Below are positions 1 to 63,124 of a stretch of DNA of 64,000 nt, piece by piece. The position numbers and the translations under genes are program-made. Positions within the stretch are counted from its first letter, which is position 1. Each line of letters starts with the position of its first letter. Location of the stretch: assembly GCF_014250475.1 (NCBI RefSeq), contig NZ_CP060204.1, forward strand, positions 1,625,001-1,689,000. Direction: 5' to 3'. Source of the stretch: Selenomonas timonae. GTDB taxonomy: Bacteria; Bacillota; Negativicutes; Selenomonadales; Selenomonadaceae. Under the pieces are notes generated by a model. That model worked only from the letters and a program-made list of their open reading frames with translations, was not told the origin of the DNA and ran no database searches.

Positions 1-1
1 G

Positions 2-178
2 GACAAAGAGGCACGGCGTGTCCTGTATCTCCGTTATATGGGTTACCGCTCGTGGGCAGAGATTGCGACGGAGATGAAACTTGGTCTTCGTCAAATCTAC
101 CGTCTGCATGGCGTTGGACTGAAAAATATTTCTCCGATGTCACTAAATGTCACTAAATGGCAGTCGATGTCGTCTTGA
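2..178 (+). CDS. DUF1492-like phage regulator, C-terminal part (prophage A)
   Basis: Partial: the reading frame enters from the window's left edge. The visible 58 residues match the C-terminal half of the complete copy at 54746-55150, including the helix-turn-helix-like segment SWAEIATEMKLGLRQIYRLHG. Proteins of this type are sigma-region-4-like and sit just before the late genes of Firmicutes phages, where they probably activate late transcription (inference from position). In this copy the codon that is TAA in prophage B is TCA, so the protein runs 12 residues further, reading through the first TGTCACTA repeat. Confidence 0.75.
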   Translation, partial: DKEARRVLYLRYMGYRSWAEIATEMKLGLRQIYRLHGVGLKNISPMSLNVTKWQSMSS

Positions 179-210
179 TGTCACTACCTTGACAGTGATA
201 TGATATACTC
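139..210 (+). promoter_or_regulatory. TGTCACTA repeat cluster and late promoter candidate
   Basis: TGTCACTA occurs at 139-146, 149-156 and 179-186, the first two exactly 10 bp apart. It is followed by TTGACAGTGATATGATATACT at 189-209, which has a good -10 match (TATACT) but no -35 at normal spacing. Poor -35 spacing plus phased repeats upstream is what an activator-dependent late promoter looks like. The block is conserved in prophage B (55146-55217). Operator function is inferred. Confidence 0.5.
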
Positions 211-232
211 AGCGAAAATAGGATATGGAATC

Positions 233-271
233 AGCCTTCTTGGAGAAGCAATTCTCCGTGAGGGCTTTTTT
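233..271 (+). terminator. Hairpin with T tract before HNH gene
   Basis: AGCCTTCTTGGAGAA pairs imperfectly (12 of 15) with TTCTCCGTGAGGGCT and is followed by six T. Prophage B has the same fold with different bases in the stem (55241-55279). It lies between the candidate late promoter and the first late gene, so it could act as an attenuator. Confidence 0.5.
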
Positions 272-285
272 GATGGAGAAACGCA

Positions 286-660
286 ATGCCGAGAAAACCA
301 AAGCGCCCTTGTCGAATGACAGGCTGTCCGAATCTTACAGACCGGAAAAGCTGTTACTGTGAGGAGCACGAGAAAGTCATGCAGCGACATTACGACCACT
401 TCACGCGTGGGTACGATCAGCACGAGCGGTATGGCAGCGTATGGCGCAGGATCCGTGACCGACATTTGGCAGGGCATCCGATCTGCGAGAAATGCAAAGA
501 GCAGGGGAGATATGTTCTCGCAACGCTTGTGCATCATATTCGACCTCTCGCCGACGGCGGCACGCACGGTGAGAGCAATTTGATGTCGCTCTGCGTGTCT
601 TGTCATGAGCGGATTCATCAGCGCGGCAGAGGCGATGGATACCCCCTAGGGGGCGGTTAA
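286..660 (+). CDS. HNH endonuclease (prophage A)
   Basis: A 124-residue phage HNH nuclease. It has an N-terminal zinc-finger-like cluster (CRMTGCPN, then CYCEEH) and a C-terminal HNH core with LVHHIRPLADGG, the Asn of ESNLMSLC and CHERIH. In HK97-like phages this gene lies just before the small terminase, and the nuclease works with terminase in DNA packaging, probably cutting at cos (family knowledge). The ATG at 286 follows a GGAGA site. The last seven residues (GDGYPLG region) are encoded by the first bases of the cos-like sequence. The prophage B copy ends differently because a toxin-antitoxin cassette is inserted there. Confidence 0.9.
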   Translation: MPRKPKRPCRMTGCPNLTDRKSCYCEEHEKVMQRHYDHFTRGYDQHERYGSVWRRIRDRHLAGHPICEKCKEQGRYVLATLVHHIRPLADGGTHGESNLMSLCVSCHERIHQRGRGDGYPLGGG

Positions 661-735
661 ATCTCTAAAACCACGCCGTTACTGGACCGGGGAGGGGGAG
701 TACGCACAAAAACGTCGGTTCAAACGGGGTATTAA
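642..735. other. Candidate cos/packaging region (prophage A)
   Basis: GC-rich non-coding stretch between the HNH gene and small terminase, starting CCCCCTAGG and containing CGGTTAAATCTCTAAAACC, a CCGGGGAGGGGG run and CACAAAAACGTC. It is almost identical in prophage B (56299-56392). Position between HNH and terminase small subunit is where cos lies in many phages of this type. No cleavage position can be read from sequence. Confidence 0.45.
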
Positions 736-752
736 AGGAAGGGGGCGAGAAG

Positions 753-1313
753 ATGGCGCGGGACGGAACAAATCGCGGAGGACGACGCATCCGGGCGGGA
801 GATAAGCCCGAACCACTCGCAGATAAGATTGCGGGCGGGCGCACGGCGCACATCATGGGGTTCCCAATGACGGAACTGGACGGCACAGACCTTGTGGATG
901 CCGCTAACCTCTACGGTGAGGAGATGCCAACGCCGAGTGAGTTCCTGTCGGCACGGCAGAGGAACGGAAAACCGCTCGGTGCGGATGAAATTTTCCGCGA
1001 GACATGGCTATGGCTGAAGGAGCGCGGCTGTGAGCGTCTCGTAAATCCTCGCCTCATCGAAAGCTATGCGCAGGCATTTGCCCGCTTCATCCAATGTGAG
1101 GAAGCAATGAGTCAATACGGACTCATTGGCAAGCATCCGACGACAGGAGGCGCGATTGCAAGCCCCTTCGTCCAGATGGGACAGGCGTTTCAGAAGCAGT
1201 CCAATCTGCTCTGGTATGAGATATTCGACATCGTAAAGCAGAACTGCACCACCACATTCGTCGGTTCTCCGCAGGAGGATCGGATGGAACGGCTGCTGCG
1301 TTCGAGGAAGTAA
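753..1313 (+). CDS. Terminase small subunit, P27 family (prophage A)
   Basis: 186 residues, a typical length for P27-family small terminases, which recognise phage DNA and recruit the large subunit for packaging. A basic N terminus (RDGTNRGGRRIRAGDKP) precedes a helical body; residues 60-130 carry the helices of the family (EFLSARQRNGKPL, then SYAQAFARFIQCEEAM). The ATG follows AAGGAAGGGGG. It leads the packaging module and is separated by 13 bp from the methyltransferase gene. The prophage B product differs by only a few substitutions near residues 22-52. Confidence 0.9.
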   Translation: MARDGTNRGGRRIRAGDKPEPLADKIAGGRTAHIMGFPMTELDGTDLVDAANLYGEEMPTPSEFLSARQRNGKPLGADEIFRETWLWLKERGCERLVNPRLIESYAQAFARFIQCEEAMSQYGLIGKHPTTGGAIASPFVQMGQAFQKQSNLLWYEIFDIVKQNCTTTFVGSPQEDRMERLLRSRK

Positions 1314-1326
1314 GGAGGGAAGTGAT

Positions 1327-2592
1327 TTGAATAAAACAACATCGGAGATGAAGCTCGTTCCAATCAGCAAGCTCGTCCCGTATGCCAACAATGCACGGAC
1401 GCACTCGCCCGAACAAATCAACAAGCTGCGCGGAAGTCTACGCGAGTTCGGATTCGTCAGTCCCGTCATCATCGACAAGGACTATGGCATTCTCGCAGGA
1501 CACGGACGTGTTGCGGCAGCGCGGGCGGAGGGGATAGAGAGCGTTCCCTGTGTCTTTGTCGATCATCTGACCGAGGCTCAGAAGAAAGCGTATATCCTCG
1601 CAGACAACCGTTTCGCCCTCGACGCAGGATGGGATGAAGATATGCTGCGCATCGAGATGGAAGCCTTGCAGGACATGGACTTCGATATCTCGCTCACGGG
1701 CTTCGACGAAGCTGAAATTGCTGACCTGCTCTCACTGGATGATGGTGAAGCGCAGGAAGACGACTTCGATGTGGACGCAGAACTGCAAAAGCCATGTGTC
1801 GCCAAAACAGGCGATGTATGGCATCTCGGCAAGCACCGTGTTATCTGCGGCGATTCGACGTTGCCGGAGACATACGAGCGGCTGCTCGGCAGTGAGAAAG
1901 TCAACCTTGTCTGTACGGACCCGCCGTATTTTGTGGCTCTGGAAAGTTCCTCCGGGAAGATCAAGAACGATGATCTGAATGACAAGGACGCCTACGAGTT
2001 CCTCAAATCTGCCTTTACCGCCTTCCACTCGGCAATGGCGACAGACGCCTCCATCTACGTTTTCTACGCAACGGCAAAAGCCCGCATCTTTCATGACGCT
2101 TATGAAGATGCGGGCTTTAAGGTTGGCGCGGGACTGGTGTGGAAGAAAGACCGTCTTGTCCTCACACGCACGGACTGGAAGTACATCCACGAGCCGATCA
2201 TCTGGGGATGGCGAAAGGACGGGCGGCACAGATGGTACGGCGACCAGAAGCAGACCACGGTCTTTGCATTTGATCGCATCAAGGACTCGAAGAAAGACGG
2301 CTGCGGTCATCCATCCTCAAAGCCCGTGCCGCTTATCGCGTACCTTGTCAAGCAGTGTACGCAGACAAACGGTGTCGTACTTGACGGCTTCCTCGGCTCG
2401 GCATCAACGCTCATTGCCTGTGAGCAGTTGGGGCGTATCTGTTACGGTGTGGAGGTTGAGCCGAAATTCGTGGATGTCGCTGTTGAGAGGTACATTCAGA
2501 GCAAAGACAGCAATGCCGAAGATGTGTTTTTGGAACGTGACGGTGAGCGCATTCCGTATGCGGACGTGCCGAAATCGAAGGAGGAATCGTGA
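1327..2592 (+). CDS. ParB-like nuclease / DNA N6-adenine methyltransferase fusion (prophage A)
   Basis: 421 residues in two domains. Residues about 8-100 are a ParB/Srx-like fold (PISKLVPYANNARTHS, then GHGRVAAARAEG). Residues about 160-400 are a DNA methyltransferase with catalytic TDPPY near residue 200 and the AdoMet-binding LDGFLGSAST near residue 355. DPPY before the AdoMet motif is the beta-class order typical of N6-adenine or N4-cytosine enzymes. Such fusions are common beside phage terminases and may modify phage DNA against restriction. The TTG start is chosen because GGAGGG lies 7 bases upstream. The stop overlaps the amidase ATG (TGATG). Confidence 0.9.
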   Translation: MNKTTSEMKLVPISKLVPYANNARTHSPEQINKLRGSLREFGFVSPVIIDKDYGILAGHGRVAAARAEGIESVPCVFVDHLTEAQKKAYILADNRFALDAGWDEDMLRIEMEALQDMDFDISLTGFDEAEIADLLSLDDGEAQEDDFDVDAELQKPCVAKTGDVWHLGKHRVICGDSTLPETYERLLGSEKVNLVCTDPPYFVALESSSGKIKNDDLNDKDAYEFLKSAFTAFHSAMATDASIYVFYATAKARIFHDAYEDAGFKVGAGLVWKKDRLVLTRTDWKYIHEPIIWGWRKDGRHRWYGDQKQTTVFAFDRIKDSKKDGCGHPSSKPVPLIAYLVKQCTQTNGVVLDGFLGSASTLIACEQLGRICYGVEVEPKFVDVAVERYIQSKDSNAEDVFLERDGERIPYADVPKSKEES

Positions 2593-3131
2593 TGCGTGTG
2601 TTTTTGAATCCGGGTCATGCGCCGGACGGGAATCCCGACCCCGGCGCGTGCGGGTATGGGCTGCGGGAATGCGACGTTGCAAAGAATGTCGCTGACCTTG
2701 TGGCGGGGTATCTCGCTGCCGCAGGTGTCGAGGTGGTCGGCTGTCTGCAATCTGATAGCCTCCATGAAGTAGTCTCGGCTTCCAACAACAGCGATGCGGA
2801 CGTATTCATCTCCATCCACTGCAACGCCTGTAACGGCGCGGCAAACGGAACGGAGGTCTGGCACTTCTACGGAAGCGGCGCAGGGGAGACCTTGGCAAGC
2901 TGCATTCAGAACCAGATTGTCACGTCATTGGGGACTACAGATCGCGGCACAAAGGGGGCAAAGCCCGGTGTCAACGGGCTGTACGTTCTAAGCAACACGG
3001 ATGCGGTCGCCGTACTCGTGGAGCTTGCATTTATCGACCATGAGGGCGATGCAGAGCTTCTTGGGACGCAGCAGGATGAATTTGCCCGTGCCATTGCGCG
3101 TGGGGTAACGGACTATGAAGGAGAGTGTTGA
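2592..3131 (+). CDS. N-acetylmuramoyl-L-alanine amidase endolysin (prophage A)
   Basis: 179-residue Amidase_3-family enzyme that cuts the bond between muramic acid and the peptide stem in peptidoglycan. Zinc ligands visible are H9 (NPGHAP), E26 (GLRECDVA) and H76 (SIHCNA); the catalytic Glu is in VELAFIDH near residue 145. There is no signal peptide, so release should depend on a holin. The gene overlaps the methyltransferase stop. Its place upstream of the large terminase is unusual: the holin gene is 18 kb away at 21275. Confidence 0.9.
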   Translation: MRVFLNPGHAPDGNPDPGACGYGLRECDVAKNVADLVAGYLAAAGVEVVGCLQSDSLHEVVSASNNSDADVFISIHCNACNGAANGTEVWHFYGSGAGETLASCIQNQIVTSLGTTDRGTKGAKPGVNGLYVLSNTDAVAVLVELAFIDHEGDAELLGTQQDEFARAIARGVTDYEGEC

Positions 3132-3133
3132 AG

Positions 3134-3415
3134 ATGAAACTGGAACACATTCAAAATGAACTGAAGAATCATGTGGGGGATTTTGTACGGACGGAGGCGA
3201 AGGAAGCGACCGTCCTCTGGCTGCACGAGAAGGGACTTCCCGCAGCGCGTGAGGTGTCGGCGGCGTACACGGCGGCACTGAAAGAGAGCGCGGAGAAGGA
3301 GACGGGATGGTGCAGATTCCGTGACCGCATCTTCCTACCGCTTGTCATTGATGGGGCGATCTGGATGACGGGCAAGATGCTTGAGCGCATGACCGCGCCC
3401 CATTCTGCGAAATGA
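3134..3415 (+). CDS. Conserved small phage protein after endolysin (prophage A)
   Basis: 93 residues, not recognised. The N-terminal half is charged and helical (KLEHIQNELKNHVGDF, then TEAKEATVLWLHEKG). The C-terminal half has a short hydrophobic patch (IFLPLVIDGAIWMTG) that is weak for a membrane span. It is nearly identical in prophage B (58791-59072) and starts 2 bases after the amidase stop, so the two are probably co-translated. An accessory lysis role is possible but unsupported. ATG at 3134 is preferred; in-frame GTG 3125 and TTG 3128 are closer to the AAGGAG site. Confidence 0.7.
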   Translation: MKLEHIQNELKNHVGDFVRTEAKEATVLWLHEKGLPAAREVSAAYTAALKESAEKETGWCRFRDRIFLPLVIDGAIWMTGKMLERMTAPHSAK

Positions 3416-3534
3416 TGGTATTCGGCAGTTTATCCTCCTAGATGGCTATGGTGTATACAACAGATTCTGCTTGCTAATTCTTCCCATACGAGTGATGAAT
3501 GTAATGACCAAAGTACATGAAGGAGGAAACCACC
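3416..3534 (+). promoter_or_regulatory. Leader of accessory cassette 1 with TTGCTA element
   Basis: Non-coding 119 bp conserved in prophage B (59073-59189) from GCTATGGTGTATACAACA onward. It contains TTGCTA at 3471-3476, the same hexamer that starts the promoter-like elements at 4816 and 7915. Here the downstream -10 candidate is poorly spaced (GAATGT, about 20 bp). It ends with AAGGAGG before the ATG at 3535. Confidence 0.35.
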
Positions 3535-4341
3535 ATGAAGGTCAATTACAACATCCAAAAGGAAGAGCGCAAGGCGATGGTCGGGATCATCGGCAAGGTG
3601 CTCGGTGAAAAGCCCGTCTACTGCGGCGCACCGACATTTTCCTACAAAATCGGCGCATTCGAGATCATGAAGGACGGCAGCCTTTGCTTCGACGATGCCA
3701 CCGATGAAGCGACCGTTGCGCGTGTGCGCATGGCACTGAGCGAGGATGGCTTTATGTCCGAGGATTGGGAGAACGAGGCTTCCTGTGCGGACACAGGGGC
3801 GAATGAGCCGATTCAGACGGAAGCGGCGGCAGATGATGAGCCGACACCGGCAGAAACGGTGGTAGAAGAACCTGCTCCAATGGAGGCAGTGATGGAAGAA
3901 CCCGATGAGGACAGCCTTTCCATCAGTCTCCCGCGCAGCCTTTTCACCGAGACGGCACTGCAGAATCTGGATGCACTTCTTCTGAGCAAGGGACGGCTGA
4001 TTCGCCACGCCTTTGACATCAGGGAAGCGACCTACACGCTGACCGATGACCGCATCACCTTCGCATGGCTGCACGGCACGATCACCGACGAGACGGCAAA
4101 GGCATACGCTGAGTTCATCAGTAAACTCTGCCTGATGGCACGGGCGCAAAAGCGCGTTACGGCAAAGGAGAAGATTGTGGACAACGAGAAATACGCATTC
4201 CGCTGCTTCCTCCTGCGCCTCGGCATGATCGGGAGCGCCTACAAGCAGTCGCGTAAGATTCTCCTGCAGAACCTCATCGGCAGCAGCGCGTTCAAGAGCG
4301 GACATCGGAAGGAGGCTGAGGATCATGCGGTTTCCGAGTAA
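3535..4341 (+). CDS. 'Virulence'-annotated phage/ICE protein (prophage A)
   Basis: 268 residues of a family often labelled virulence-related in Firmicutes phages and conjugative elements; molecular role unknown. Domains in order: N-terminal conserved block (residues 1-65, KVNYNIQKEERKAMVG and GAPTFSYKIGAFEI), an acidic Pro/Glu linker (about 85-125), and a C-terminal helical block (130-268) with SISLPRSLFTETALQNLD, KRVTAKEKIVDNEKYAFRC and LLQNLIGSSAF. The linker is nine residues longer in prophage B. The ATG at 3535 follows AAGGAGG; the ATG at 3517 has no such site. It overlaps the DUF4314 gene by 17 bp. Confidence 0.8.
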   Translation: MKVNYNIQKEERKAMVGIIGKVLGEKPVYCGAPTFSYKIGAFEIMKDGSLCFDDATDEATVARVRMALSEDGFMSEDWENEASCADTGANEPIQTEAAADDEPTPAETVVEEPAPMEAVMEEPDEDSLSISLPRSLFTETALQNLDALLLSKGRLIRHAFDIREATYTLTDDRITFAWLHGTITDETAKAYAEFISKLCLMARAQKRVTAKEKIVDNEKYAFRCFLLRLGMIGSAYKQSRKILLQNLIGSSAFKSGHRKEAEDHAVSE

Positions 4342-4561
4342 GGAACAGATCGCCGCACTTCGTAAGCGGTACCCGAACGGGGCAAAGGTGGAACTCCTCG
4401 GAATGGATGATCCGCAAGCCCCACCGATGGGAACGAGGGGCGAGGTTCTGGGCGTTGACGATGCGGGACAGCTTCTTGTCCGATGGGAGACAGGCTCGTC
4501 ACTCAGTCTGATCTCTGGTGTGGACTCCTTCCGCATCGTGCAGAAAGGGGGCAGATCATGA
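4325..4561 (+). CDS. DUF4314 protein (prophage A)
   Basis: 78 residues of the DUF4314 family, recognised from MRFPSKEQIAALRKRYPNG at the start, the MDDPQAPP segment and a small beta-rich body (GTRGEVLGVDDAGQLLVRW). Function unknown; the shape suggests a small beta-barrel. It lies between the virulence-family and DUF5049 genes, and this trio recurs in Firmicutes phages and integrative elements. The start overlaps the upstream gene, and the stop overlaps the next ATG (ATGA), indicating coupled translation. Confidence 0.85.
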   Translation: MRFPSKEQIAALRKRYPNGAKVELLGMDDPQAPPMGTRGEVLGVDDAGQLLVRWETGSSLSLISGVDSFRIVQKGGRS

Positions 4562-4734
4562 ACGAGAAGGTTTTCGCACAGATCATGGATATCCGCAACT
4601 CCGGGCGGGTGAATATGTTCGACGTCCCCAGAGTTCAGCGGATGGCGTTCGAGATGGGGTTCTACGAACTGGTCTGCTTCATCGAGGAAGACCGTGCGAC
4701 GTATGTACGATTTATCCTCACGGGTGAAAAATAG
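4558..4734 (+). CDS. DUF5049 protein (prophage A)
   Basis: 58 residues of the DUF5049 family: MNEKVFAQIMDIRNSGRVN, then NMFDVPRVQRMAFEMGFYE, LVCFIEEDR and a FILTGEK end. Function unknown. It is the last gene of cassette 1; a terminator hairpin follows 21 bp later. Nearly identical in prophage B, which suggests purifying selection or recent gene exchange. Confidence 0.85.
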   Translation: MNEKVFAQIMDIRNSGRVNMFDVPRVQRMAFEMGFYELVCFIEEDRATYVRFILTGEK

Positions 4735-4755
4735 CCGACGATTCTAGCGATTCTG

Positions 4756-4780
4756 CACAGCCTTTCGGGGCTGTGTTTCT
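4756..4780 (+). terminator. Terminator closing cassette 1
   Basis: CACAGCC / GGCTGTG perfect 7-bp stem with a TTTCGG loop, followed by TTTCTC. Same in prophage B at 60438. Confidence 0.7.
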
Positions 4781-4815
4781 CTCGAAATATAAGTGTGGTT
4801 TATCCGAAATATGAC

Positions 4816-4844
4816 TTGCTATATTCTGCGTTTAGAGACATATA
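4816..4844 (+). promoter_or_regulatory. Repeated promoter-like element (cassette 2)
   Basis: TTGCTA, exactly 17 bases, then CATATA. The same spacing occurs at 7915, 21944, 60498 and 63096. It stands 51 bp before the ATG at 4895. Confidence 0.55.
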
Positions 4845-4894
4845 TGTACATGGCCGAAGGAAATAACCTACACACAGAAAGCGAGGAACACAAA

Positions 4895-5173
4895 ATGAAG
4901 AACGCAGAAGCAAGATGGCCGAAGACCACCACGATGGAGCACCTCGATGAGATGCGGTTCGGGACAAGCGGCGCGATCCTTCGCTACGGCGAGCAGATCC
5001 TTGTCGTCGGGATGGAATGCTGGGGATTCCACGCAGCCGTCTACGAGATGGTTGAAACGCCGGAGGAGACGGGACTGGCAGACATTGAATGCCGCCTGAA
5101 CCTCGTCGAAGCCGCCACGGAGCTTTTTGAGGACGGCGGGCACGCGATGGCATGGTGCATGAAGCGCATCTAA
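4895..5173 (+). CDS. Conserved small phage protein, accessory cassette 2 (prophage A)
   Basis: 92 residues, not recognised. Soluble, mixed charge, with a beta-rich middle (GAILRYGEQILVVGMECWGFHAAVY would form strands) and a C-terminal helix (NLVEAATELFEDGGHAMAW). No catalytic motif seen. The ATG at 4895 follows GCGAGGA. It has its own upstream promoter-like element and two downstream hairpins, so it looks like an independently transcribed moron gene between the DUF5049 and terminase genes. The prophage B copy (60577-60855) is almost identical. Confidence 0.7.
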   Translation: MKNAEARWPKTTTMEHLDEMRFGTSGAILRYGEQILVVGMECWGFHAAVYEMVETPEETGLADIECRLNLVEAATELFEDGGHAMAWCMKRI

Positions 5174-5192
5174 GCCACGCCGAACAACAAAA

Positions 5193-5241
5193 CAGCCCTT
5201 CGGGGCTGCTTCTCGTATTGCCGCTATTGAGCGGCTTTTTT
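5193..5241 (+). terminator. Double hairpin closing cassette 2
   Basis: First stem CAGCCC/GGGCTG at 5193-5208 with TTCG loop. Second stem GCCGCT/AGCGGC at 5220-5235, loop ATTG, followed directly by six T. In prophage B the second hairpin has a different sequence but keeps the stem and T tract. Confidence 0.7.
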
Positions 5242-5256
5242 GATGGGGGTGATCGC

Positions 5257-7878
5257 TTGCGGAAACTGACGGATTACAAGCCGACGAGGTTCATGGCAGA
5301 GGACGCACACTATGACAAAGCCGCTGCGGACTATGCCGTCGGCTTCATCGAGTGCCTGTGCCATACGAAGGGGACGTGGGCAGGAAAGCCCTTCGAGCTG
5401 ATCGACTGGCAGGAGCGCATTATCCGAGACATTTTCGGAATTTTGAAACCGAACGGCTATCGGCAGTTCAACACGGCGTATGTTGAGATTCCCAAGAAAC
5501 AAGGAAAACAGCTTACTCTTGATACGAAAATCCCCACACCCGAGGGATTTACCACAATGGGCGATATTCGCGTCGGAGATACCGTTTTTGACGAAAACGG
5601 ACAGCCCTGCCGTGTTGTTGCAAAGAGCGATGTGGATGACACCGAGCAAGCCTATCGGCTGACTTTTCGTGACGGCTCGTCCATCGTCGCAGGGGAACGG
5701 CATCTCTGGAATGTGGAGCACATCATCGGCGAGCCGCGATCCATGCTTTGGACAACGGGTGAAATCTACAGCCGAACGATGAGGTACAGAGAAAAATATC
5801 GGGATAACGAGAAGGAGGCACGCCGTTCCATTATCCGAATCCCTGTGGCAAAATCGCTGAATCTCGCAGAGTGTGATCTTCCTGTTGATCCGTATCTTTA
5901 CGGATACTGGATCGGCAACGGATGTGCCACAAAGCCCGAAATTACTATCTGCGATAAGGACGTACAGGCGGTCACACAGAGTGTGCCGTATGCTCCATAC
6001 AACAGCATTCCTCAGCCGGGAAGTGTGCGCGTGTACTATGAGGAACTAAAGAGCATCCTCGTTCCGACATTCCGAGATAAGGTTATCCCAGTCGCATATC
6101 TAAGAGCCTCGGAGCGTCAGCGTTGGGAACTCTTGCAAGGTCTGATGGATTCTGACGGGTGCATCGGGAATCGGAAGGCGCAGAGCGTCTACGTCAGCAC
6201 CATCAAACAGCTTGCCGAATCGGTACGCGAACTCTTGTGGAGTCTCGGCATCAAGAATGCCATGACAGAAGCACCGTCTACGCGATGCGGAAAGCCGACA
6301 GGGGAAACCCTCTACATCATACGGTTCACTACATTTGACGATCAACCAACATCAAAACTGCATCGGAAAATCTGCCGGAAACGGGAGCGGGTTAAAGAAA
6401 CTCGCTCCTGTTTTCATTATCTGGCAGACATCGTGTCGCTCTCAGAGCGAGTCCCCATGCAGTGCATTCAAGTGGATAGTGCAAGTCACTGCTATCTGGT
6501 AGGGGAATCCTTCGTGCCAACGCACAACAGCGAACTCGCCGCCGCTGTCGCACTCCTCCTTTGTTGCGGCGATGGGGAGGAGCGAGCCGAGGTGTATGGC
6601 TGTGCTGCCGATCGTCAACAGGCGAGCATCGTGTTCGAGGTCGCAGCAGACATGGTGCGTATGTGTCCCGCCCTCAGCAAGCGAGTGAAGATCCTTGCCT
6701 CCCAGAAGCGGATGGTATATCTGCCGACGAACAGCTTCTATCAGGTGCTTTCGGCAGAGGCATATTCAAAGCACGGCTTCAACATTCACGGCGTGGTATT
6801 TGATGAGCTGCACACGCAGCCGAACCGCAAGCTCTTTGACGTTATGACGAAAGGCTCCGGCGATGCGCGAATGCAGCCGCTTTACTTCCTTATCACCACG
6901 GCAGGAACGGATATGCAGTCCATCTGCTACGAGACACATCAGAAAGCAGTGGATATTCTGGAAGGGCGAAAGATTGATTCGACCTTCTATCCCGTGATCT
7001 ACGGAGCGAAGGAAGATGAGGACTGGACAGACCCGGAGGTTTGGAAACGGTCGAATCCGTCGCTTGGTATCACAGTCGGCATCGACAAGGTACAGGCGGC
7101 TTGCGACTCTGCACGGCAGAATCCAGCCGAGGAGAACAGCTTCCGTCAGCTTCGACTGAACCAATGGGTGAAGCAGTCCGTGCGGTGGATGCCGATGGAC
7201 AAGTGGGATAGCTGTGACGCCCATGTTGACGCTGAGTCCTTAGAGGGCTGTGTCTGCTACGGCGGTCTTGACCTTTCCTCTACGATGGACATTACGGCGT
7301 TTGTCCTCGTGTTCCCTCCGACGGAGGAGGATGAGCCGTTTGCCGTGCTTCCGTATTTCTGGATTCCCGAGGAGAACATCGACCTTCGTGTGCGGCGTGA
7401 CCATGTGCCGTATGACGTGTGGGAGAGACAGGGCTACGTACAAACGACAGAGGGGAATGTCGTGCATTACGGATTCATCGAGGCGTTCATTGAGAAACTT
7501 GGCGAGAAGTACAACATTCGCGAGATTGCCTTCGACCGATGGGGTGCAGTGCAGATGGTGCAGAACCTCGAGGGGATGGGCTTCACCGTTGTTCCATTCG
7601 GTCAGGGCTTCAAGGATATGAGTCCGCCGACCAAGGAGCTGATGAAGCTGACCTTGGAAAAGAAAATAGCGCACGGCGGGCATCCCGTCATGCGCTGGAT
7701 GGCAGACAACATCTTCATTCGCACCGACCCTGCGGGGAACATCAAGGCAGATAAGGAGAAGTCCACCGAGAAGATCGACGGCGTGATTGCGCTCATCATG
7801 GCTCTGGATCGTGCGATCCGCTGCGGGAATGATACCTCGGAATCGGTGTACGAGAGTCGGGGGATGTGGGTGTTTTAG
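5257..7878 (+). CDS. Terminase large subunit with full-length class 3 intein (prophage A)
   Basis: 873-residue precursor; removing the 340-residue intein (85-424) leaves a 533-residue terminase, a normal length. Terminase is the ATPase-nuclease that packages DNA into the prohead. The Walker A motif is split by the intein: PKKQGK before it and SELAAAVALLLC after it. Downstream are AEVYGCAADRQQASIVFEVA, the Walker B region VVFDELHTQPN and the nuclease domain (YGGLDLSSTMDITAF, then AFDRWGA). Without splicing the P-loop cannot form, so packaging should depend on splicing. The TTG start is chosen because GGGGGTG lies about 7 bases upstream and the conserved MRKLTDYKPT begins there. Confidence 0.92.
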   Translation: MRKLTDYKPTRFMAEDAHYDKAAADYAVGFIECLCHTKGTWAGKPFELIDWQERIIRDIFGILKPNGYRQFNTAYVEIPKKQGKQLTLDTKIPTPEGFTTMGDIRVGDTVFDENGQPCRVVAKSDVDDTEQAYRLTFRDGSSIVAGERHLWNVEHIIGEPRSMLWTTGEIYSRTMRYREKYRDNEKEARRSIIRIPVAKSLNLAECDLPVDPYLYGYWIGNGCATKPEITICDKDVQAVTQSVPYAPYNSIPQPGSVRVYYEELKSILVPTFRDKVIPVAYLRASERQRWELLQGLMDSDGCIGNRKAQSVYVSTIKQLAESVRELLWSLGIKNAMTEAPSTRCGKPTGETLYIIRFTTFDDQPTSKLHRKICRKRERVKETRSCFHYLADIVSLSERVPMQCIQVDSASHCYLVGESFVPTHNSELAAAVALLLCCGDGEERAEVYGCAADRQQASIVFEVAADMVRMCPALSKRVKILASQKRMVYLPTNSFYQVLSAEAYSKHGFNIHGVVFDELHTQPNRKLFDVMTKGSGDARMQPLYFLITTAGTDMQSICYETHQKAVDILEGRKIDSTFYPVIYGAKEDEDWTDPEVWKRSNPSLGITVGIDKVQAACDSARQNPAEENSFRQLRLNQWVKQSVRWMPMDKWDSCDAHVDAESLEGCVCYGGLDLSSTMDITAFVLVFPPTEEDEPFAVLPYFWIPEENIDLRVRRDHVPYDVWERQGYVQTTEGNVVHYGFIEAFIEKLGEKYNIREIAFDRWGAVQMVQNLEGMGFTVVPFGQGFKDMSPPTKELMKLTLEKKIAHGGHPVMRWMADNIFIRTDPAGNIKADKEKSTEKIDGVIALIMALDRAIRCGNDTSESVYESRGMWVF
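5509..6528 (+). other. Class 3 intein coding segment, full length
   Basis: 340 residues inserted between Lys and Ser of the terminase P-loop. Position 1 is Gln, not Cys or Ser. Block A is QLTLDTKIPTPEGF. Block B has H65 and W67 (GERHLW). Block F has C319 (MQCIQVDS). Block G is VPTHN with T338, then Ser as +1. Trp-B12, Cys-F4 and Thr-G5 form the WCT triplet that defines class 3 inteins, which splice from the block F Cys (established for mycobacteriophage examples). It includes a LAGLIDADG endonuclease. Confidence 0.88.
5887..6399 (+). other. LAGLIDADG homing endonuclease domain within intein
   Basis: 171 codons absent from the prophage B intein. Two dodecapeptide-like motifs are visible: LYGYWIGNG and LLQGLMDSDG, each with an acidic or near-acidic catalytic position (the first has Asn where Asp is usual, the second has Asp). 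The domain would cut intein-free terminase genes to promote homing. Whether the first motif is still catalytic is uncertain. Confidence 0.8.
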
Positions 7879-7914
7879 GGCGATCGTATACACGCTTTAT
7901 CTTCACATATGGCC

Positions 7915-7943
7915 TTGCTATTTCTCGGATTATACGGGAATAT
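7915..7943 (+). promoter_or_regulatory. Repeated promoter-like element (cassette 3)
   Basis: TTGCTA, 17 bases, GAATAT, 51 bp before the ATG at 7994. Same layout at 63096 in prophage B. Confidence 0.6.
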
Positions 7944-7993
7944 ACACATACCGAAAGGGAAAACCGAAGGAGCCAGAAACGGAGGAAAAGAAA

Positions 7994-8320
7994 ATGAACA
8001 AGCAGGAAATCGCCAAGATCATCGAGAGCAAGGCTGCCGAGTACGGACTCAAGCTGCAGGAAAGCACGATGGGCTGGGCAAACGAGAGCAACCACGACAG
8101 CTACATCCGCATCGAGGTTCGCAAAGAGAGGGATTATGACAAGACGGATTGGGAAGCCCGCAAGGTTTTCTGGGACATCAAAGCCAACGCCGGCATTTGC
8201 CAGATGGGCGGAGATCCAACGCCGGAGGAACTTTTGAAAGCCGCCGACGAGATTGCGCGGGGCGCGAAATTCACAGCCGACATCAACAGCATGGAGCTTT
8301 CCTGCATCGAAATCTTCTAA
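7994..8320 (+). CDS. Conserved small phage protein, accessory cassette 3 (prophage A)
   Basis: 108 residues, not recognised. It begins with a helix (KQEIAKIIESKAAEYG) followed by a beta-rich middle (SYIRIEVRKERDYDK) and a helical end (PEELLKAADEIARG). Acidic overall, soluble, no signal peptide. The ATG follows GGAGGAAAAG. It lies between large terminase and portal, genes normally adjacent in HK97-like phages, and has its own promoter-like element upstream and a strong hairpin downstream. Copy in prophage B at 63175-63501. Confidence 0.7.
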   Translation: MNKQEIAKIIESKAAEYGLKLQESTMGWANESNHDSYIRIEVRKERDYDKTDWEARKVFWDIKANAGICQMGGDPTPEELLKAADEIARGAKFTADINSMELSCIEIF

Positions 8321-8332
8321 GCTGAAACTACG

Positions 8333-8360
8333 GAGCACCGCTCGAAAGGGCGGTGCTCTT
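8333..8360 (+). terminator. Hairpin closing cassette 3
   Basis: GAGCACCGC pairs perfectly with GCGGTGCTC (9 bp, 8-base loop). The following tail is only moderately T-rich. Prophage B has one G-T change in the stem. Confidence 0.6.
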
Positions 8361-8418
8361 GCTCTCATCATCTTCTGTGGTAAGGCTTTTTCATACCGTT
8401 TTGGAAATGGAGGTTTCC

Positions 8419-9648
8419 ATGAACTTCTTCACAAAACTCTTTCGTTCGCGGGACAAGCCCACAAATCACCTCGGTGGCTTGTCCTTTTTGTTCGGGCAGA
8501 CGGCGGCAGGAAAGGCGGTCAACGAACGGACGGCAATGCAGACGACGGCAGTCTATGCCTGTGTCCGCATCCTCGCAGAATCCATCGCAGGGCTGCCGCT
8601 TCACGTCTATGTCTACCAAGGGCAGGGCAAGGAGCGCGTGCCGGAGCACCCGTTGTATTTTCTGCTCCACGATGCGCCAAATCCCGAGATGACGAGTTTT
8701 GTCTTTCGTGAGACGCTTATGGCGCATCTCCTCCTGTGGGGGAATGCCTACGCACAAATTTTGCGGGATGGCAGAGGGCGTGTTCTCGGACTTTATCCGC
8801 TCCTCCCGGATAAGATGGAGGTCAGCCGCGACAGCCGCACGGGGGAACTCTACTACACCTATACGCGAAGCACGGAGGAGAATCCGAATTTTGCGGACAA
8901 GGGGCAGATTCGTCTGCGCCCTGAGGATGTGCTTCACATTCCGGGACTCGGCTTCGATGGTCTGGTTGGCTACAGTCCAATCGCTATGGCAAAGAACGCC
9001 ATCGGGATCGCGCTTGCAACGGAGGAATACGGTGCGGCATTCTTCAAGAACGGAGCGCGTCCGGGTGGCGTACTCGAACATCCGGGTGTCCTCAAAGACC
9101 CGTCGAAGCTCCGTGAGAGTTGGCACGCCGTTTACGGCGGCACGATGAACACGGGCAGGATTGCTGTTCTTGAGGAAGGTGTAAAGTATCAGCAGATTGC
9201 CATTCCACCCGAGGAGGCGCAGTTCCTAGAGACGAGGAAGTTCCAGATCGACGAGATCGCACGGCTCTATCGTGTGCCGCCGCATATGGTAGGAGACTTG
9301 GAGAAATCCTCATTTTCCAATATCGAGCAGCAGTCGCTTGAGTTCGTCAAATACACTTTGAATCCGTGGGTGGTTCGTTGGGAGCAGTCGCTTCAAAAGG
9401 CTCTGCTGACGGACAAGGAGCGGAAGGACTACTTCATCCGCTTCAATGTGGACGGGCTTCTGCGCGGAGATTACAAGAGCCGTATGGAGGGCTATGCCAT
9501 CGGGCGGCAGAACGGATGGCTCTCGGCGAACGACATCCGCAGTCTTGAGGACATGAACCCCATCGAAGCGGACGAGGGTGGCGATCTCTATCTCATCAAC
9601 GGGAATATGACGAAACTGAGGGACGCAGGGCTGTTTGCCGCTAGGTAG
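8419..9648 (+). CDS. Portal protein, HK97 family (prophage A)
   Basis: 409 residues. Forms the dodecameric ring at the capsid vertex through which DNA enters and leaves. Family features: VNERTAMQTTAVYACVRI near residue 40, GLPLHVY, LLLWGNAYAQI near 100, GLVGYSPI near 180, and the crown/stem segment with ETRKFQIDEIARLYRVPPH near 280. The ATG follows GGAGG with 7-base spacing. It opens the head operon and ends 13 bp before the protease gene. Confidence 0.95.
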   Translation: MNFFTKLFRSRDKPTNHLGGLSFLFGQTAAGKAVNERTAMQTTAVYACVRILAESIAGLPLHVYVYQGQGKERVPEHPLYFLLHDAPNPEMTSFVFRETLMAHLLLWGNAYAQILRDGRGRVLGLYPLLPDKMEVSRDSRTGELYYTYTRSTEENPNFADKGQIRLRPEDVLHIPGLGFDGLVGYSPIAMAKNAIGIALATEEYGAAFFKNGARPGGVLEHPGVLKDPSKLRESWHAVYGGTMNTGRIAVLEEGVKYQQIAIPPEEAQFLETRKFQIDEIARLYRVPPHMVGDLEKSSFSNIEQQSLEFVKYTLNPWVVRWEQSLQKALLTDKERKDYFIRFNVDGLLRGDYKSRMEGYAIGRQNGWLSANDIRSLEDMNPIEADEGGDLYLINGNMTKLRDAGLFAAR

Positions 9649-9661
9649 AAGGGAGAAAGCG

Positions 9662-10357
9662 ATGAAGCGTAAATTTTGGAACTGGGTACGGAACGAAGGA
9701 GAGAAGCGAATCTTGCTTCTGGACGGTGAAATCTCAGATGAAACATGGTGGGGCGATGAGGTCACACCTCAGATGTTCCGCTCTGAGCTGAACGCCACCG
9801 AGGGAGATATTGACCTCTGGATCAACTCACCGGGCGGCGACTGTTATGCAGCGGCACAGATCTACAATATGCTGATGGAATATCCCGGCGAGGTCACGGT
9901 CAAGATTGACGGGATTGCCGCTTCCGCCGCATCCGTCGTTGCGATGGCAGGATCGACCGTCGAGATTTCTCCTCTAGGTTTGTTGATGCTGCATAATCCG
10001 ATGACCGTTTCTATCGGAGACACGCACGAGATGGAGCGGACAATTACGTTCCTCTCTGAAATCAAGGAGAGCATTATCAATGCCTACGAACTCAAGACGG
10101 GACTTTCCCGTGCGAAGATTTCACGTCTCATGGATGCCGAGACATGGATGAATGCAAAGAAAGCAGTGGAACTTGGGTTTGCGGATTCCGTTCTCTATGA
10201 GAATAGGGAACATCTCACAAGTGCTGCGGCGGACGGGCTGATCTTCTCCCGCGCCGCCGTCACGAACTCTCTGCTCTCGAAATTCGGGCAGGGGACACAA
10301 ACAAATAATGTCGATGCAGAGCCGATCAAACGACGGCTCTTTTCTATTTCACATTAA
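9662..10357 (+). CDS. Head maturation protease, ClpP-like
   Basis: 231 residues of the S14 (ClpP-like) family used by many HK97-like phages to cleave scaffold or capsid precursors. Nucleophile S88 lies in GIAAS, catalytic H111 in MLHNP, and INSPGGDCYAAAQI near residue 55 is the oxyanion-side glycine loop. The protease lies between portal and capsid, as usual. The C-terminal 50 residues are not conserved in ClpP and may bind capsid. ATG at 9662 follows AGGGAG. Confidence 0.93.
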   Translation: MKRKFWNWVRNEGEKRILLLDGEISDETWWGDEVTPQMFRSELNATEGDIDLWINSPGGDCYAAAQIYNMLMEYPGEVTVKIDGIAASAASVVAMAGSTVEISPLGLLMLHNPMTVSIGDTHEMERTITFLSEIKESIINAYELKTGLSRAKISRLMDAETWMNAKKAVELGFADSVLYENREHLTSAAADGLIFSRAAVTNSLLSKFGQGTQTNNVDAEPIKRRLFSISH

Positions 10358-21775: not shown

Positions 21776-21961
21776 ATGAGCAAGGAAGATGGTCTTCGGG
21801 AAATGACGTATCAGATGGTGATGCGTGCTTCATGGAAAATGCTGCAGAGCGGACTTTTGTCAGAGGACGAGTATCTTGCGTTTGAAGCGAAAATGCGCGA
21901 GAAATATCGTCCCGTTATTGGGCTTTTATTTTCGGATATTGACTTGCTATCGTGCGGATAG
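21776..21961 (+). CDS. Small SHOCT-like protein upstream of recombinase
   Basis: 61 residues. Helical, with LQSGLLSEDEYLAFEAKM, the short GL-x-x-x-E-Y/F motif of SHOCT-like domains, then REKYRPVIGLLF. Proteins like this are commonly found just upstream of serine recombinase genes in Firmicutes mobile elements; role unknown, possibly control of integration. The ATG at 21776 follows AAGGGAG. Its 3' end contains a promoter-like TTGCTA element. Confidence 0.7.
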   Translation: MSKEDGLREMTYQMVMRASWKMLQSGLLSEDEYLAFEAKMREKYRPVIGLLFSDIDLLSCG

Positions 21962-21972
21962 TACGGGAATAT
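21944..21972 (+). promoter_or_regulatory. Repeated promoter-like element before recombinase
   Basis: TTGCTA, 17 bases, GAATAT, inside the end of the SHOCT-like gene and 23 bp before the recombinase ATG. The spacer half GGATAGTACGG nearly equals that at 63096. Confidence 0.55.
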
Positions 21973-21995: not shown

Positions 21996-23495
21996 ATGAA
22001 GATACGAAGAGTCCAACAAACTCAGACATTGCAGAAAAAGCTGCGTGTGGCTGCATACGCCCGTGTTTCTGTGGATGCGCTTCATCACTCTCTTGCGGCG
22101 CAGGTCAGTTACTACAGCAGTCTCATCCAGAAAAATCCCGCATGGGAATACGCAGGCGTGTATGCGGATGAAGGTATCACAGGCACAAGCACCACGCATC
22201 GGACGGAGTTCAAGCGGCTGATCGCCGACTGCAACGCCGGGAAGATTGATTTGGTGCTCGTTAAAAGCATCAGTCGTTTTGCCAGAGATACAGTGGATTG
22301 CCTTCATACCGTTCGACGGCTGAAAGAGAAGGGGATTGCCGTCCGCTTCGAACGCGAGAACATTGATTCCACATCCGAGGACGGAGAGCTGCTCTTGACG
22401 CTGCTTGCATCCTTTGCTCAAGAAGAGAGCAGAAGCATCGGCGACAACATCCGATGGGGCGTGCGGAGGCGGTTCGCACAGGGGATCCCGAACGGGCATA
22501 AAGCACCGTACGGCTACCGATGGGACGGTGAGATGTTCCGCATTATCCAAGCAGAGGGCGAGATCGTCAAGGAGATTTACCGCAGATACCTTGCAGGAGA
22601 ATCCGCATACGCCATCTCAAAGATACTCGCGGGACGTGGAATCACGGGGCGGCAGGGGAGACCAATCGAGCAGACCACAGTAAAGGACATCCTCTCCAAC
22701 ATCTCCTATACGGGCACAATGGCACTGCAGAAGAACTACATCAGCGAGGGGCATATCCGCAAACGGAATAAAGGCGAACTGCCGCTTTATCTGGTGGATG
22801 GAGTGTTCGAGCCTCTGGTGTCAAAGGAAGATTTCGACAAGGTGCAGGAGATACGGAAACGGAGAGCCGAAGGGGCGGCCAATCGGAATCCTGTTCTTCT
22901 TCCGTTTTCCGGAATGGTGAAATGCGGATGCTGCGGCAGCGGCTTCAGCAGAAGAACCGCTGGGAAGTACAGGCGATGGGGCTGCAACACAAGAGAGCGG
23001 AAAGGTAGGGAATCCTGTGACAGCCGTCCAATCAGGGAAGAGGAGCTTGTGGCTGCGGTCAGAGACGTCATGGAGAAGGAAGATTTCGATGCCACAAAAC
23101 TTCGGCGAAAGGTGTCCAAGATCGTCATTCACGGTGATCGAATCGACTTCCATCTTGTCAACGGACGCATAAAAAAGACTGCCCGCATCTACAACGGGCA
23201 GCGCGGCAGTAATCCCTTTACGAACAAAGTCTACTGTACTTCCTGCGGCAGCAAGTGTGAGCGGGATACATGGACGAAGGGAACTAAGGTGTGGTCTTGC
23301 AGTCAGCCACGCACAAAGTGCCAACTGAGGAGATTGCCCGAATCCGAGCTGAGGGAAGCTGCGGCATCCTTCTTTTGCAATGGCTACGAGGGCAAGATTG
23401 TGCAGAACGTCGAGCGGATCATCATATCCGACGATGAGGTCATATTTCAACTCAAAGAAGGAGGTGCCTACCGATGGCAAAGACAGTGCGGGTAA
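21996..23495 (+). CDS. Large serine recombinase 1 (integrase)
   Basis: 499 residues. N-terminal resolvase domain: YARVS with catalytic Ser at about residue 25, DEGITGTSTTHR, KSISRFARDTVD, and EESRSIGDNIRWG. The recombinase domain follows (ANGHKAPYGYRW-like, about 170-270). Then comes a zinc-ribbon region with CGCCGSGF about residue 310, and a second CxxC pair (CTSCGSKC) near 410. It should integrate or excise the prophage. The ATG follows AAGGAGGG. It overlaps a second recombinase gene by 22 bp, a pairing seen in Firmicutes phages and ICEs. Confidence 0.92.
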   Translation: MKIRRVQQTQTLQKKLRVAAYARVSVDALHHSLAAQVSYYSSLIQKNPAWEYAGVYADEGITGTSTTHRTEFKRLIADCNAGKIDLVLVKSISRFARDTVDCLHTVRRLKEKGIAVRFERENIDSTSEDGELLLTLLASFAQEESRSIGDNIRWGVRRRFAQGIPNGHKAPYGYRWDGEMFRIIQAEGEIVKEIYRRYLAGESAYAISKILAGRGITGRQGRPIEQTTVKDILSNISYTGTMALQKNYISEGHIRKRNKGELPLYLVDGVFEPLVSKEDFDKVQEIRKRRAEGAANRNPVLLPFSGMVKCGCCGSGFSRRTAGKYRRWGCNTRERKGRESCDSRPIREEELVAAVRDVMEKEDFDATKLRRKVSKIVIHGDRIDFHLVNGRIKKTARIYNGQRGSNPFTNKVYCTSCGSKCERDTWTKGTKVWSCSQPRTKCQLRRLPESELREAAASFFCNGYEGKIVQNVERIIISDDEVIFQLKEGGAYRWQRQCG

Positions 23496-23908
23496 TCCCG
23501 GCAAGCCCTAAAATCTTTCGTTCTGAGGTTACGGCAGAACCAAGGCGGCGCAGAACGGCAGGATATGCCAGAGTTTCGACCGATCATGAAGAACAGGCTT
23601 CCAGTTACGAAATGCAGATGGCGCATTACAAGAACTACATCGAGAGCCGTGCAGACTGGGATTTCGTCGGTATGTATTCGGACGAGGGCATCAGCGGCAC
23701 CAACACAAAGAAGCGTGACGGGTTCAACCAGATGATCGAGGATGCCCTTGCCGGCAAGATCGACCTCATCATCACAAAGTCTGTCAGCCGTTTCGCAAGA
23801 AACACCGTGGACTCGCTGCAGAATGTCCGTAAGCTCAAGGAAAACGGTGTAGAGATTTACTTCGAGAAGGAGAACATCTGGACGTTCGACACGCGCGGAG
23901 ATGTCTAA
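23474..23908 (+). pseudogene. Serine recombinase 2, truncated after resolvase domain
   Basis: 144 residues. Complete N-terminal catalytic region: GYARVSTDHEEQ with the catalytic Ser, DEGISGTNTKKR, TKSVSRFARNTVD and YFEKENIWT. The product then ends TFDTRGDV and stops; intact relatives continue for some 300-400 residues with recombinase, zinc-ribbon and coiled-coil parts. The gene therefore breaks at the prophage right end. Either the att junction or a deletion lies here. Whether the fragment is made and works with recombinase 1 is unknown. Confidence 0.8.
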
Positions 23909-43189: not shown

Positions 43190-43780
43190 ATGAAAGAATT
43201 TATTTTAATGGAAGTCACTGCTGAGACAATTCGTGATTATGGTATTTCCCGCAATGAAGTTGAGTGGTGTCGGATCGGTAATCGTAGGGTACAGGCCGTG
43301 AAAGTCTTAGCTACATACGAGGTCTTCACGTTCTATAAACGTTCAGTATTACGTGAACAACAGCAAGAATGTCGAGCAAAGTATTCGTGTATATACAAGA
43401 ATCGCAAGAATATGTGCGACCACAACTGCGAGAGTTGTACACATCCTGTGTACCGAGAATCGTGGGTTGGTGTTGTGAAAGAAGAAATATTCATTTCAGA
43501 GTCGCTGGAGACTACTTGCATAAAGAGGCTGCTGATTGAAGCACTCATCACTGAAGTCAATAAACTTGCTCCGATGGATCAGCTCCTCCTTAAATTAATT
43601 GGCGAAGCTGTGTCGGAACGTGAGATTGCAAGAATTATGGGTGGGAGATCAAAGACGGCCATCCACAAGAGGAAAGAAAAACTCTTCGTGATGCTCCGAA
43701 AAAAACTTGAAAATACGGTGACCATTAAGCCCCGTTCTGTCTGCACCCTAGTGAAAGGGGGAAAGCAGAATGTGAGTTAA
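43190..43780 (+). CDS. Sigma-factor-like protein with Cys cluster
   Basis: 196 residues. The C-terminal part has a region-4-like HTH (LIGEAVSEREIARIMGG, then SKTAIHKRKEKLFVML). The middle has six Cys and His (CRAKYSCIYKNRKNMCDHNC, then ESCTHP), a likely zinc site. Such proteins control early or replication genes in Firmicutes phages and ICEs (family context). GAAAGGATAC region precedes the ATG. Confidence 0.7.
   Translation: MKEFILMEVTAETIRDYGISRNEVEWCRIGNRRVQAVKVLATYEVFTFYKRSVLREQQQECRAKYSCIYKNRKNMCDHNCESCTHPVYRESWVGVVKEEIFISESLETTCIKRLLIEALITEVNKLAPMDQLLLKLIGEAVSEREIARIMGGRSKTAIHKRKEKLFVMLRKKLENTVTIKPRSVCTLVKGGKQNVS
43717..43762 (+). promoter_or_regulatory. Conserved hairpin motif, copy 1
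   Basis: GGTGACCA, a C-rich arm, TTCTGTCTGCAC, CCTAGTGAAA and a GGGG arm. The same order occurs at 49932-49975. It lies inside the 3' end of the sigma-like gene and 94 bp before the next gene. Confidence 0.5.
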
Positions 43781-54547: not shown

Positions 54548-54749
54548 GGTTCTTGCCAATGCAATCATCGAACAGGCGGCAAAGGATTATCGGTGGGCGC
54601 GGACGGTTCTTCGCAAAGCGGTGGAGAATGTCGAGGCGATGGCGATGCGCAGCGACACGGAGCGGTTCTTTCGTTCCGCATGGTTTGGTCAGTTGACGAG
54701 TATAAACGGAGAATGGCTTCTGCAACAGTTAGAGGGGGAGTTTGTGTGA
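54534..54749 (+). CDS. Small phage protein between helicase and DUF1492
   Basis: 71 residues, not recognised. Helical: CEVLANAIIEQAAKDYRWA, then TVLRKAVENVEAMAMRSD, FFRSAWFGQLT and a NGEWLLQQLEGEF end. Proteins of this type precede the DUF1492-like gene in related phages. GGAGGTGG precedes the ATG pair at 54534/54537. Overlaps helicase and regulator genes. Confidence 0.7.
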   Translation: MMNCEVLANAIIEQAAKDYRWARTVLRKAVENVEAMAMRSDTERFFRSAWFGQLTSINGEWLLQQLEGEFV

Positions 54750-55150
54750 CAGCAAAAGAGTATCTCAGTCAGGCATGGAACATTGACAATGAAATCCAGA
54801 GTATGTTGGAGGAGGTCGCAGTTCTCCGCAGCATGGCAGAAAAGACCACGGCGGTCATTACTGGAATGCCGGGCAATGCAACGAGGAACACATCGCAGCT
54901 TTCCGATACCATCGCGAAAATCATCGACCGAGAAGAGAAGATCGACCGTGAGATTGACCGTCTTGTTGATCTACGCTCTGAGATTTACGAAAGGGTGCAG
55001 CAGGTAGAGGACAGGGATGCGCGACGTGTGCTGTATCTCCGCTACATGAACTATCACTCGTGGGCAGAGATTGCATCGAAAATGAAACTGGGGCTGCGTC
55101 AAATCTATCGGCTCCATGGCGAGGGACTGAAAAATATTTCTCCGATGTAA
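54746..55150 (+). CDS. DUF1492-like late regulator, complete (prophage B)
   Basis: 134 residues. Helical N-terminal part (YLSQAWNIDNEIQSMLEEV, then long coiled coil to about 85) and a sigma-region-4-like end: RRVLYLRYMNYHSWAEIASK, then LGLRQIYRLHGEGLKNI. This likely binds DNA to activate late genes; the adjacent TGTCACTA repeats are the natural candidate site (inference). GTG start overlaps the previous stop, with AGAGGGGGAG before it. Stops at TAA, 12 residues earlier than the prophage A protein. Confidence 0.8.
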   Translation: MTAKEYLSQAWNIDNEIQSMLEEVAVLRSMAEKTTAVITGMPGNATRNTSQLSDTIAKIIDREEKIDREIDRLVDLRSEIYERVQQVEDRDARRVLYLRYMNYHSWAEIASKMKLGLRQIYRLHGEGLKNISPM

Positions 55151-59072: not shown

Positions 59073-59189
59073 TAATACTCTGTGGTTTATCTCACTGAGG
59101 CTATGGTGTATACAACACAATCCGCTTGCTAATTCTTCCCATACGAGTGATGAATGTAATGACCAAAGTTCATAAAGGAGGTTTTCAAA

Positions 59190-60462: not shown

Positions 60463-60497
60463 CTCGAAAAATAAGTGTAGTTTATTCAAAATACGAC

Positions 60498-60526
60498 TTG
60501 CTATATTCTGCGTTTAGATGCATATA
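60498..60526 (+). promoter_or_regulatory. Repeated promoter-like element (cassette 2, prophage B)
   Basis: TTGCTA, 17 bases, CATATA, 51 bp before the ATG at 60577. Confidence 0.55.
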
Positions 60527-63059: not shown

Positions 63060-63095
63060 GGCGATCGTATACACTCTTTATCTTCACATATGGCC

Positions 63096-63124
63096 TTGCT
63101 ATTTTGCCGATAGTACGGGAATAT
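63096..63124 (+). promoter_or_regulatory. Repeated promoter-like element (cassette 3, prophage B)
   Basis: TTGCTA, 17 bases, GAATAT, 51 bp before the ATG at 63175. Confidence 0.6.

Follow-up and report, generated by a model that had tools for sequence, protein, structure and literature searches.

A putative promoter element shared by serine recombinase and accessory genes in two Selenomonas timonae prophages and in many other phages

The question raised by this stretch of the Selenomonas timonae chromosome is whether a recurring pair of hexamers marks a promoter class that accessory and integration genes have in common, as the initial annotation proposed, and what might read it. The window (the whole 64,000-nucleotide stretch analysed, positions 1,625,001 to 1,689,000 of NZ_CP060204.1) contains TTGCTA at positions 4816, 7915, 21944, 60498 and 63096, followed after 17 bases by GAATAT at 7915, 21944 and 63096 and by CATATA at 4816 and 60498. 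From the end of the second hexamer to the ATG there are 50 bases at four small genes and 23 bases at the serine recombinase gene (ATG at 21996) that follows the 21944 site. Bare TTGCTA occurs in 13 copies in the window, which is not above its frequency in shuffled sequence.

Comparison of the window and its flanks with themselves reveals two related prophages that are ~88% identical over the motif regions, prophage A at approximately -9 to 25 kb and prophage B at approximately 43 to 79 kb (all positions are in window coordinates unless stated otherwise). The sites at 4816 and 60498 occupy the same position (P1) in the two prophages, as do those at 7915 and 63096 (P2), whereas P3 is represented by 21944 in prophage A and by a partner at genome position 1702137, beyond the window. 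Thus, the hexamers and sites are present as initially described, but the five are not independent and correspond to three independent sites per prophage; two additional members, P0 at 3470 and 59125 (CTTGCTAATTCTTCCCATACGAGTGATGAA), had been overlooked. When the window is scanned with a model whose training set consisted of accessory-gene sites, most of them taken from other genomes, these seven sites are recovered with scores from 45.9 to 18.8, followed by a gap to the next score of 12.2. The seven sites, with the classes defined below, are as follows.

3470–3499, + strand: P0 of prophage A, class II (CTTGCTAA...CGAGTGATGAA)
4815–4844, + strand: P1 of prophage A, class II (CTTGCTAT...AGAGACATATA)
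7914–7943, + strand: P2 of prophage A, class I (CTTGCTAT...TACGGGAATAT)
21943–21972, + strand: P3 of prophage A, class I, upstream of the integrase gene
59125–59154, + strand: P0 of prophage B, class II
60497–60526, + strand: P1 of prophage B, class II
63095–63124, + strand: P2 of prophage B, class I

At ~94–98 kb (L010 and L011) the packaging module recurs a third time in partial form, ~87% identical, so that the chromosome also carries what is left of another related phage. A comM-like (Mg chelatase) gene is likewise represented three times by its 5' part; these ~90% identical copies (-17.9 to -16.7, 30.8–32.1 and 107.6–108.8 kb) alternate with the prophages.

The gene order of prophage A is HNH nuclease, small terminase, ParB–methyltransferase fusion, endolysin-like gene, P0 with the MKVNYN gene, DUF5049 gene, P1 with the Nmad4 gene, large terminase, P2 with a 108-residue accessory gene, portal, protease, capsid and tail genes, holin, SHOCT_2 gene and, finally, P3 with the large serine recombinase. 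The sites therefore front cargo-like genes among the packaging genes and, in addition, the distally placed recombinase. The large terminase gene, with the portal gene after it, has P1 on one side and P2 on the other, so that each accessory gene sits among phage genes with a promoter-like element of its own. P0 lies 35 bases before the gene at 3535 in prophage A and equally before its copy at 59190 in prophage B; P3 overlaps the 3' end of the SHOCT_2 coding gene. A hairpin with a T-rich tail (seen by eye) precedes P1 at ~4755–4785. The genes concerned are the following.

3535–4341, + strand: accessory gene of the MKVNYN... family, C-terminal part resembling amidoligase PHROG 2443
4895–5173, + strand: accessory gene with an Nmad4 domain (PF18756), followed by the terminase large subunit
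5152–7878, + strand: terminase large subunit with a LAGLIDADG-containing intein-like insertion
7994–8320, + strand: accessory gene of 108 residues, followed by the portal gene
21776–21961, + strand: SHOCT_2 gene, 3' end overlapping P3
21996–23495, + strand: large serine recombinase (Resolvase, Recombinase and zinc-ribbon domains)
23474–23908, + strand: second, short resolvase-domain ORF overlapping the end of the recombinase gene
59190–60023, + strand: MKVNYN accessory gene, prophage B copy
60577–60855, + strand: Nmad4 gene, prophage B
63175–63501, + strand: 108-residue accessory gene, prophage B copy

The 108-residue product of 7994–8320 has no match in Pfam or PHROG. The MKVNYN family is also found behind many sites in other genomes; its C-terminal region is also present in neighbouring amidoligases (seen for 3535–4341 and at L103, L091 and L057), which suggests a common domain. 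The large terminase has 908 residues in prophage A (5152–7878) and 702 in prophage B (60951–63059), the shorter form being without ~170–200 residues of the LAGLIDADG-containing intein-like insertion. An apparent intein start (CIAEGQLVLTNEGLVPIEYV) is also seen in a DNA polymerase-like ORF of prophage A (L007, -8907 to -6028).

The full element is longer than TTGCTA-N17-GAATAT and consists of CTTG(C/A)TA(T/A), 11 bases and then either TACGGGAATAT (class I) or AGAGTGATRTATA (class II), with a start codon 20–55 bases downstream. In more detail, the conserved pattern is CTTG(C/A)TA(T/A), 8–11 variable bases and (GATAG)TACGGGAATAT or TTTAGAGTGATRTATA, with a weakly conserved ACCgAAA ~7 bases after the second block; the class II form, to which P0 and P1 belong, is CTTGATAA...TTTAGAGTGATRTATA. 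The spacing of exactly 17 bases that had been proposed holds for class I and fails for class II, in which the ATAT core of the 4816 and 60498 sites lies at 18 once the block is aligned. Nor are the spacers arbitrary in sequence, since class I sites have GATAGTACGG in common and class II sites GCGTTTAGAG. This spacer block differs between the two classes although the types of gene served are alike.

Two blocks at fixed spacing, on the same strand as the gene and just upstream of start codons, are the general features of a promoter, and a start codon with a ribosome-binding site is present within 140 nt at 237 of 244 collected sites (median distances to the start 24 and 34 nt). The housekeeping sigma-A consensus (-35 TTGACA, -10 TATAAT, spacing 16–18) is matched by TTGCTA at only four of six positions and by GAATAT at three of six, and a generic promoter scan of positions 1–10000 did not report the element sites. 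A search for a conserved RNA fold over the element and leader produced no consensus structure (23 class I and 94 class II sites). A CTAT-N7-ATAG hairpin or palindrome in class I was considered and found not to be essential, since the pairing at any one position is retained in just 14 to 22 of the 26 sites. At a single site (L075) a LexA-like palindrome (GGGAACATGTTCCC) is present.

The genome-wide search for the GAATAT form that the initial annotation had called for returned five places in the 2.35-Mb genome, four of them within these two prophages and the fifth at 703031 on the reverse strand, without the TACGG block. Among 189 genomes of the family, the class I pattern (CTTGCTAT, 11 bases, TACGGGAATAT) has 40 matches in 23 genomes and the reversed control pattern has none; together with the three exact GAATAT matches in the window, this exceeds chance. 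The pattern also occurs in 34 viral-contig stretches, and exact class I was found in 39 stretches of the GTDB set (~85,000 species genomes), where by our own estimate about two would be expected by chance. Nearly all 39 lie in front of a large serine recombinase gene or a small accessory gene of a phage, and their hosts include Selenomonas, Centipeda, Eubacterium, Peptostreptococcus, Parvimonas, Atopobacter, Lachnospiraceae and others. Large serine recombinases from several clades are encoded behind class I, as are small accessory proteins, amidoligases, YspA/SLOG proteins and members of the MKVNYN family; the downstream reading is ambiguous at one match (L106) and at one broken locus (L107). 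Class II was first met upstream of recombinases in gut phages placed in Ca. Heliusvirales and in Streptococcus phages; it is the commoner form, with more than 120 viral stretches among the matches listed, and is present in 12 of 149 genomes across the phylum (reversed pattern, 0). Matches in 19 whole genomes fall at one or two loci each, besides scattered two-mismatch matches. In the genomes searched, the class I element was not found before ordinary host genes and its matches lie almost only at mobile genes, so that it has the appearance of a regulatory signal common to these viruses.

The proposal of a shared class for accessory and integration genes is supported, and its scope is far broader than originally claimed. 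The 244 sites, which come partly from pattern searches and are phylogenetically related despite redundancy filters, comprise 93 before large serine recombinases, 144 before other genes (mostly small phage accessory families) and seven without a start codon within 140 nt. Position weight models built from accessory-gene sites only were applied to 78 recombinase loci picked by protein similarity alone, with the better of two controls (inside the gene and on the reverse strand) as the threshold; 58 loci score above it, and several of those below the control line still have a recognizable element. Loci L129–L142 were scored with class I only, which misses class II sites, and some of their 'no motif' labels are accordingly too strict. 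The recombinases of TP901-1, A118, phi105, phiFL1A, pneumococcal IPP15 and the Faecalibacterium phage Pioen are without the element, which therefore marks one large phage group and not serine integrases generally.

In Negativicutes, accessory sites carry in addition the palindrome GTATAC upstream of CTTG at a gap of exactly 11 or 21–22 bp. All 24 copies among 60 filtered sites are at gap 11, 21 or 22 (shuffled sequences give a mean of 1.2 at any position), as are 12 of 14 copies in a wider site set. The copies in the window are as follows.

3453–3458, + strand: GTATAC, 11 bp before the P0 box, prophage A
7886–7891, + strand: GTATAC, 22 bp before the P2 box, prophage A
59108–59113, + strand: GTATAC, 11 bp before the P0 box, prophage B
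63067–63072, + strand: GTATAC, 22 bp before the P2 box, prophage B

Before the same gene, the distance from GTATAC to CTTG differs by exactly 11 bp between P2 of prophages A and B and two relatives (L057 and L027), the relatives being shorter. GTATAC shows no over-representation across the prophages as a whole and is absent from recombinase sites; it is thus a module of one group of accessory sites. The idea that it is a universal part of the element was rejected, sites without an exact copy showing no preference. The 11-bp phasing suggests a regulator kept on one helix face, and an activator may bind at GTATAC.

The conservation, fixed geometry, orientation, gene association and distribution of the element, together with the phased GTATAC, suggest that it acts in transcription, probably as a promoter class dedicated to a wide range of tailed phages and small satellite-like elements whose hosts are mainly Firmicutes. 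Against this reading stand the poor agreement of the hexamers with housekeeping promoters, the different spacer blocks of the two classes and the restriction of GTATAC to one group of accessory sites. It is very unlikely that the similarity merely reflects the shared descent of leaders copied with cargo cassettes and carries no regulatory meaning: a leader sequence (ACACATACCGAAAGGGAAAAC) is indeed common to some accessory sites well past the boxes, but recombinases from deeply separated clades, and accessory genes that are unrelated, have the two blocks alone in common, at fixed spacing, and the phased GTATAC and the exact 11-bp deletion indicate constraint. Recombinases of different clades are known to use different att sites. 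The adjacency of the element to the recombinase gene might suggest an integration site, yet the element is common to recombinases of different clades and, within prophages, also precedes genes that do not encode recombinases, invariably ahead of a start codon and oriented with the gene; this gene context makes an att site scarcely credible and that reading was rejected.

As to what would read such a promoter, either host RNA polymerase with a specific regulator or a phage-encoded sigma-like factor is possible, the host enzyme being at least as likely. Recognition by host RNA polymerase with its main sigma factor, the conserved spacer block then serving a widespread regulator as its operator or as an extended contact, is a serious candidate, if somewhat short of an even chance. 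The -35 box of some recombinase sites grades into canonical TTGACT and the occurrence in many host families suits a conserved host enzyme, but plain housekeeping promoters need no conserved block of 11–16 bases and the absence of the pattern before host genes in the genomes searched speaks against it. More tentative is the proposal that the reader is an alternative sigma-like factor, namely a small protein that is encoded early in these phages and satellites and has a helix-turn-helix resembling sigma region 4. A protein recognized by the combined profile is encoded in most motif-bearing elements for which enough sequence was read (the zinc-finger pair profile A1 alone matched only close relatives), its relatives match phage sigma-factor PHROGs, and in one Streptococcus phage record a neighbour of the recombinase is annotated as a sigma-70 subunit of RNA polymerase. 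In the ~9-kb satellite-like G242 and G232, the motif is accompanied by one sigma-like gene as the only evident positive regulator. However, the helix-turn-helix is very divergent among elements with an identical -35 box, the gene is also present in a phage without a detected motif (G212), and some of the matches are weak and could be unrelated region 4-like proteins, ArpU-like ones included; the copies in prophages A and B have no match in Pfam, and the single-sequence structure model (mean pLDDT 52.9) is of low confidence and was used for the helix pattern only. We take the phage sigma-like factor of the PBSX Xpf type to be a possible example of such a trans-acting factor. Sporulation sigma factors were dropped because class II does not fit and several of the hosts are not known to form spores. 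The two candidate regulators in prophage B are listed here.

43190–43780, + strand: early gene with a sigma region 4-like C-terminal helix-turn-helix, candidate trans-acting factor
54593–55150, + strand: ArpU/DUF1492-like late regulator, with different repeats in its own downstream promoter

An ArpU/DUF1492-like late activator that reads these promoters along with the late operon is decidedly unlikely. The family is present in 15 of 16 class I viral records and in two of 19 others, a co-occurrence that is confounded by phage relatedness. Just 3' of the ArpU-like gene, where known relatives act, seven phages have different direct repeats (TTTGGTA-like or AAATGTCC-like), which vary among phages while the motif is constant; the element is thus not the same as the promoter downstream of the ArpU gene, and G242 and G232 have the motif and no ArpU-like gene. 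ArpU was rejected as the reader on these grounds despite the co-occurrence: its own promoter looks different and it is probably not the protein involved. The late promoters of L197, L198, L199, L200 and L214 have 2–4 direct repeats of ~10–11 bp followed by a TATAAT-like box, the repeats likely being ArpU operators. G242 (L202) and G232 (L203) carry genes for primase-like and capsid-like proteins and for a TndX-type recombinase, and look like capsid-carrying satellites.

A limited search of the open-access literature could not find a description of the motif. ArpU/DUF1492 late promoters resemble the element in belonging to the same phages and in being dedicated phage promoters outside the housekeeping consensus, and differ from it in having variable direct repeats and a TATAAT-like box instead of CTTGCTAT...TACGGGAATAT. 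The arrangement is also reminiscent of moron promoters, in which small cargo genes between packaging and structural genes each have their own promoter-like element; here, however, one sequence class extends across many phage groups and to the integrase gene. The integrase promoters of TP901-1, A118, phi105 and phiFL1A likewise serve a serine integrase gene, but the element is absent upstream of these genes (scores -17 to -0.1), and in TP901-1 int lies beside cI on the lysogeny side, whereas here the recombinase lies behind the lysis genes. Temperate-phage accessory loci are reported to be often expressed in lysogens (PMC7067206).

Under the preferred reading of the element as a dedicated phage promoter class, CTTG(C/A)TA(T/A) would be the -35 contact and the TACGGGAATAT or TTTAGAGTGATRTATA block would provide the -10 together with a further specific spacer contact, with an extra protein possibly bound in one group at GTATAC, one or two helical turns upstream. 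Such a promoter would drive two kinds of gene in or behind the late operon (packaging, structure and lysis), namely the large serine recombinase, which lies distally, and moron-like cargo between the packaging genes. Integrase and cargo could then be expressed while the late operon is silent, in lysogeny or early infection. A bolder extension, which we regard as rather doubtful, is that Firmicutes phages and satellites form a regulon in which the integrases and cargo of unrelated elements depend on one promoter class with an exchangeable element-encoded sigma-like reader, so that co-resident elements could cross-activate these genes.

With the phased GTATAC and the existence of two spacer classes, the search for the regulator can be put to a direct test. 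If the element is a promoter, a short signature would predict genes that are independent of the late operon in phages very common in gut, rumen and oral communities, and control of the integrase would be tied to control of the cargo. Hidden cargo genes and integrases could then be found in metagenomes by sequence alone, and the sites would constitute ready-made natural promoters for serine integrases.
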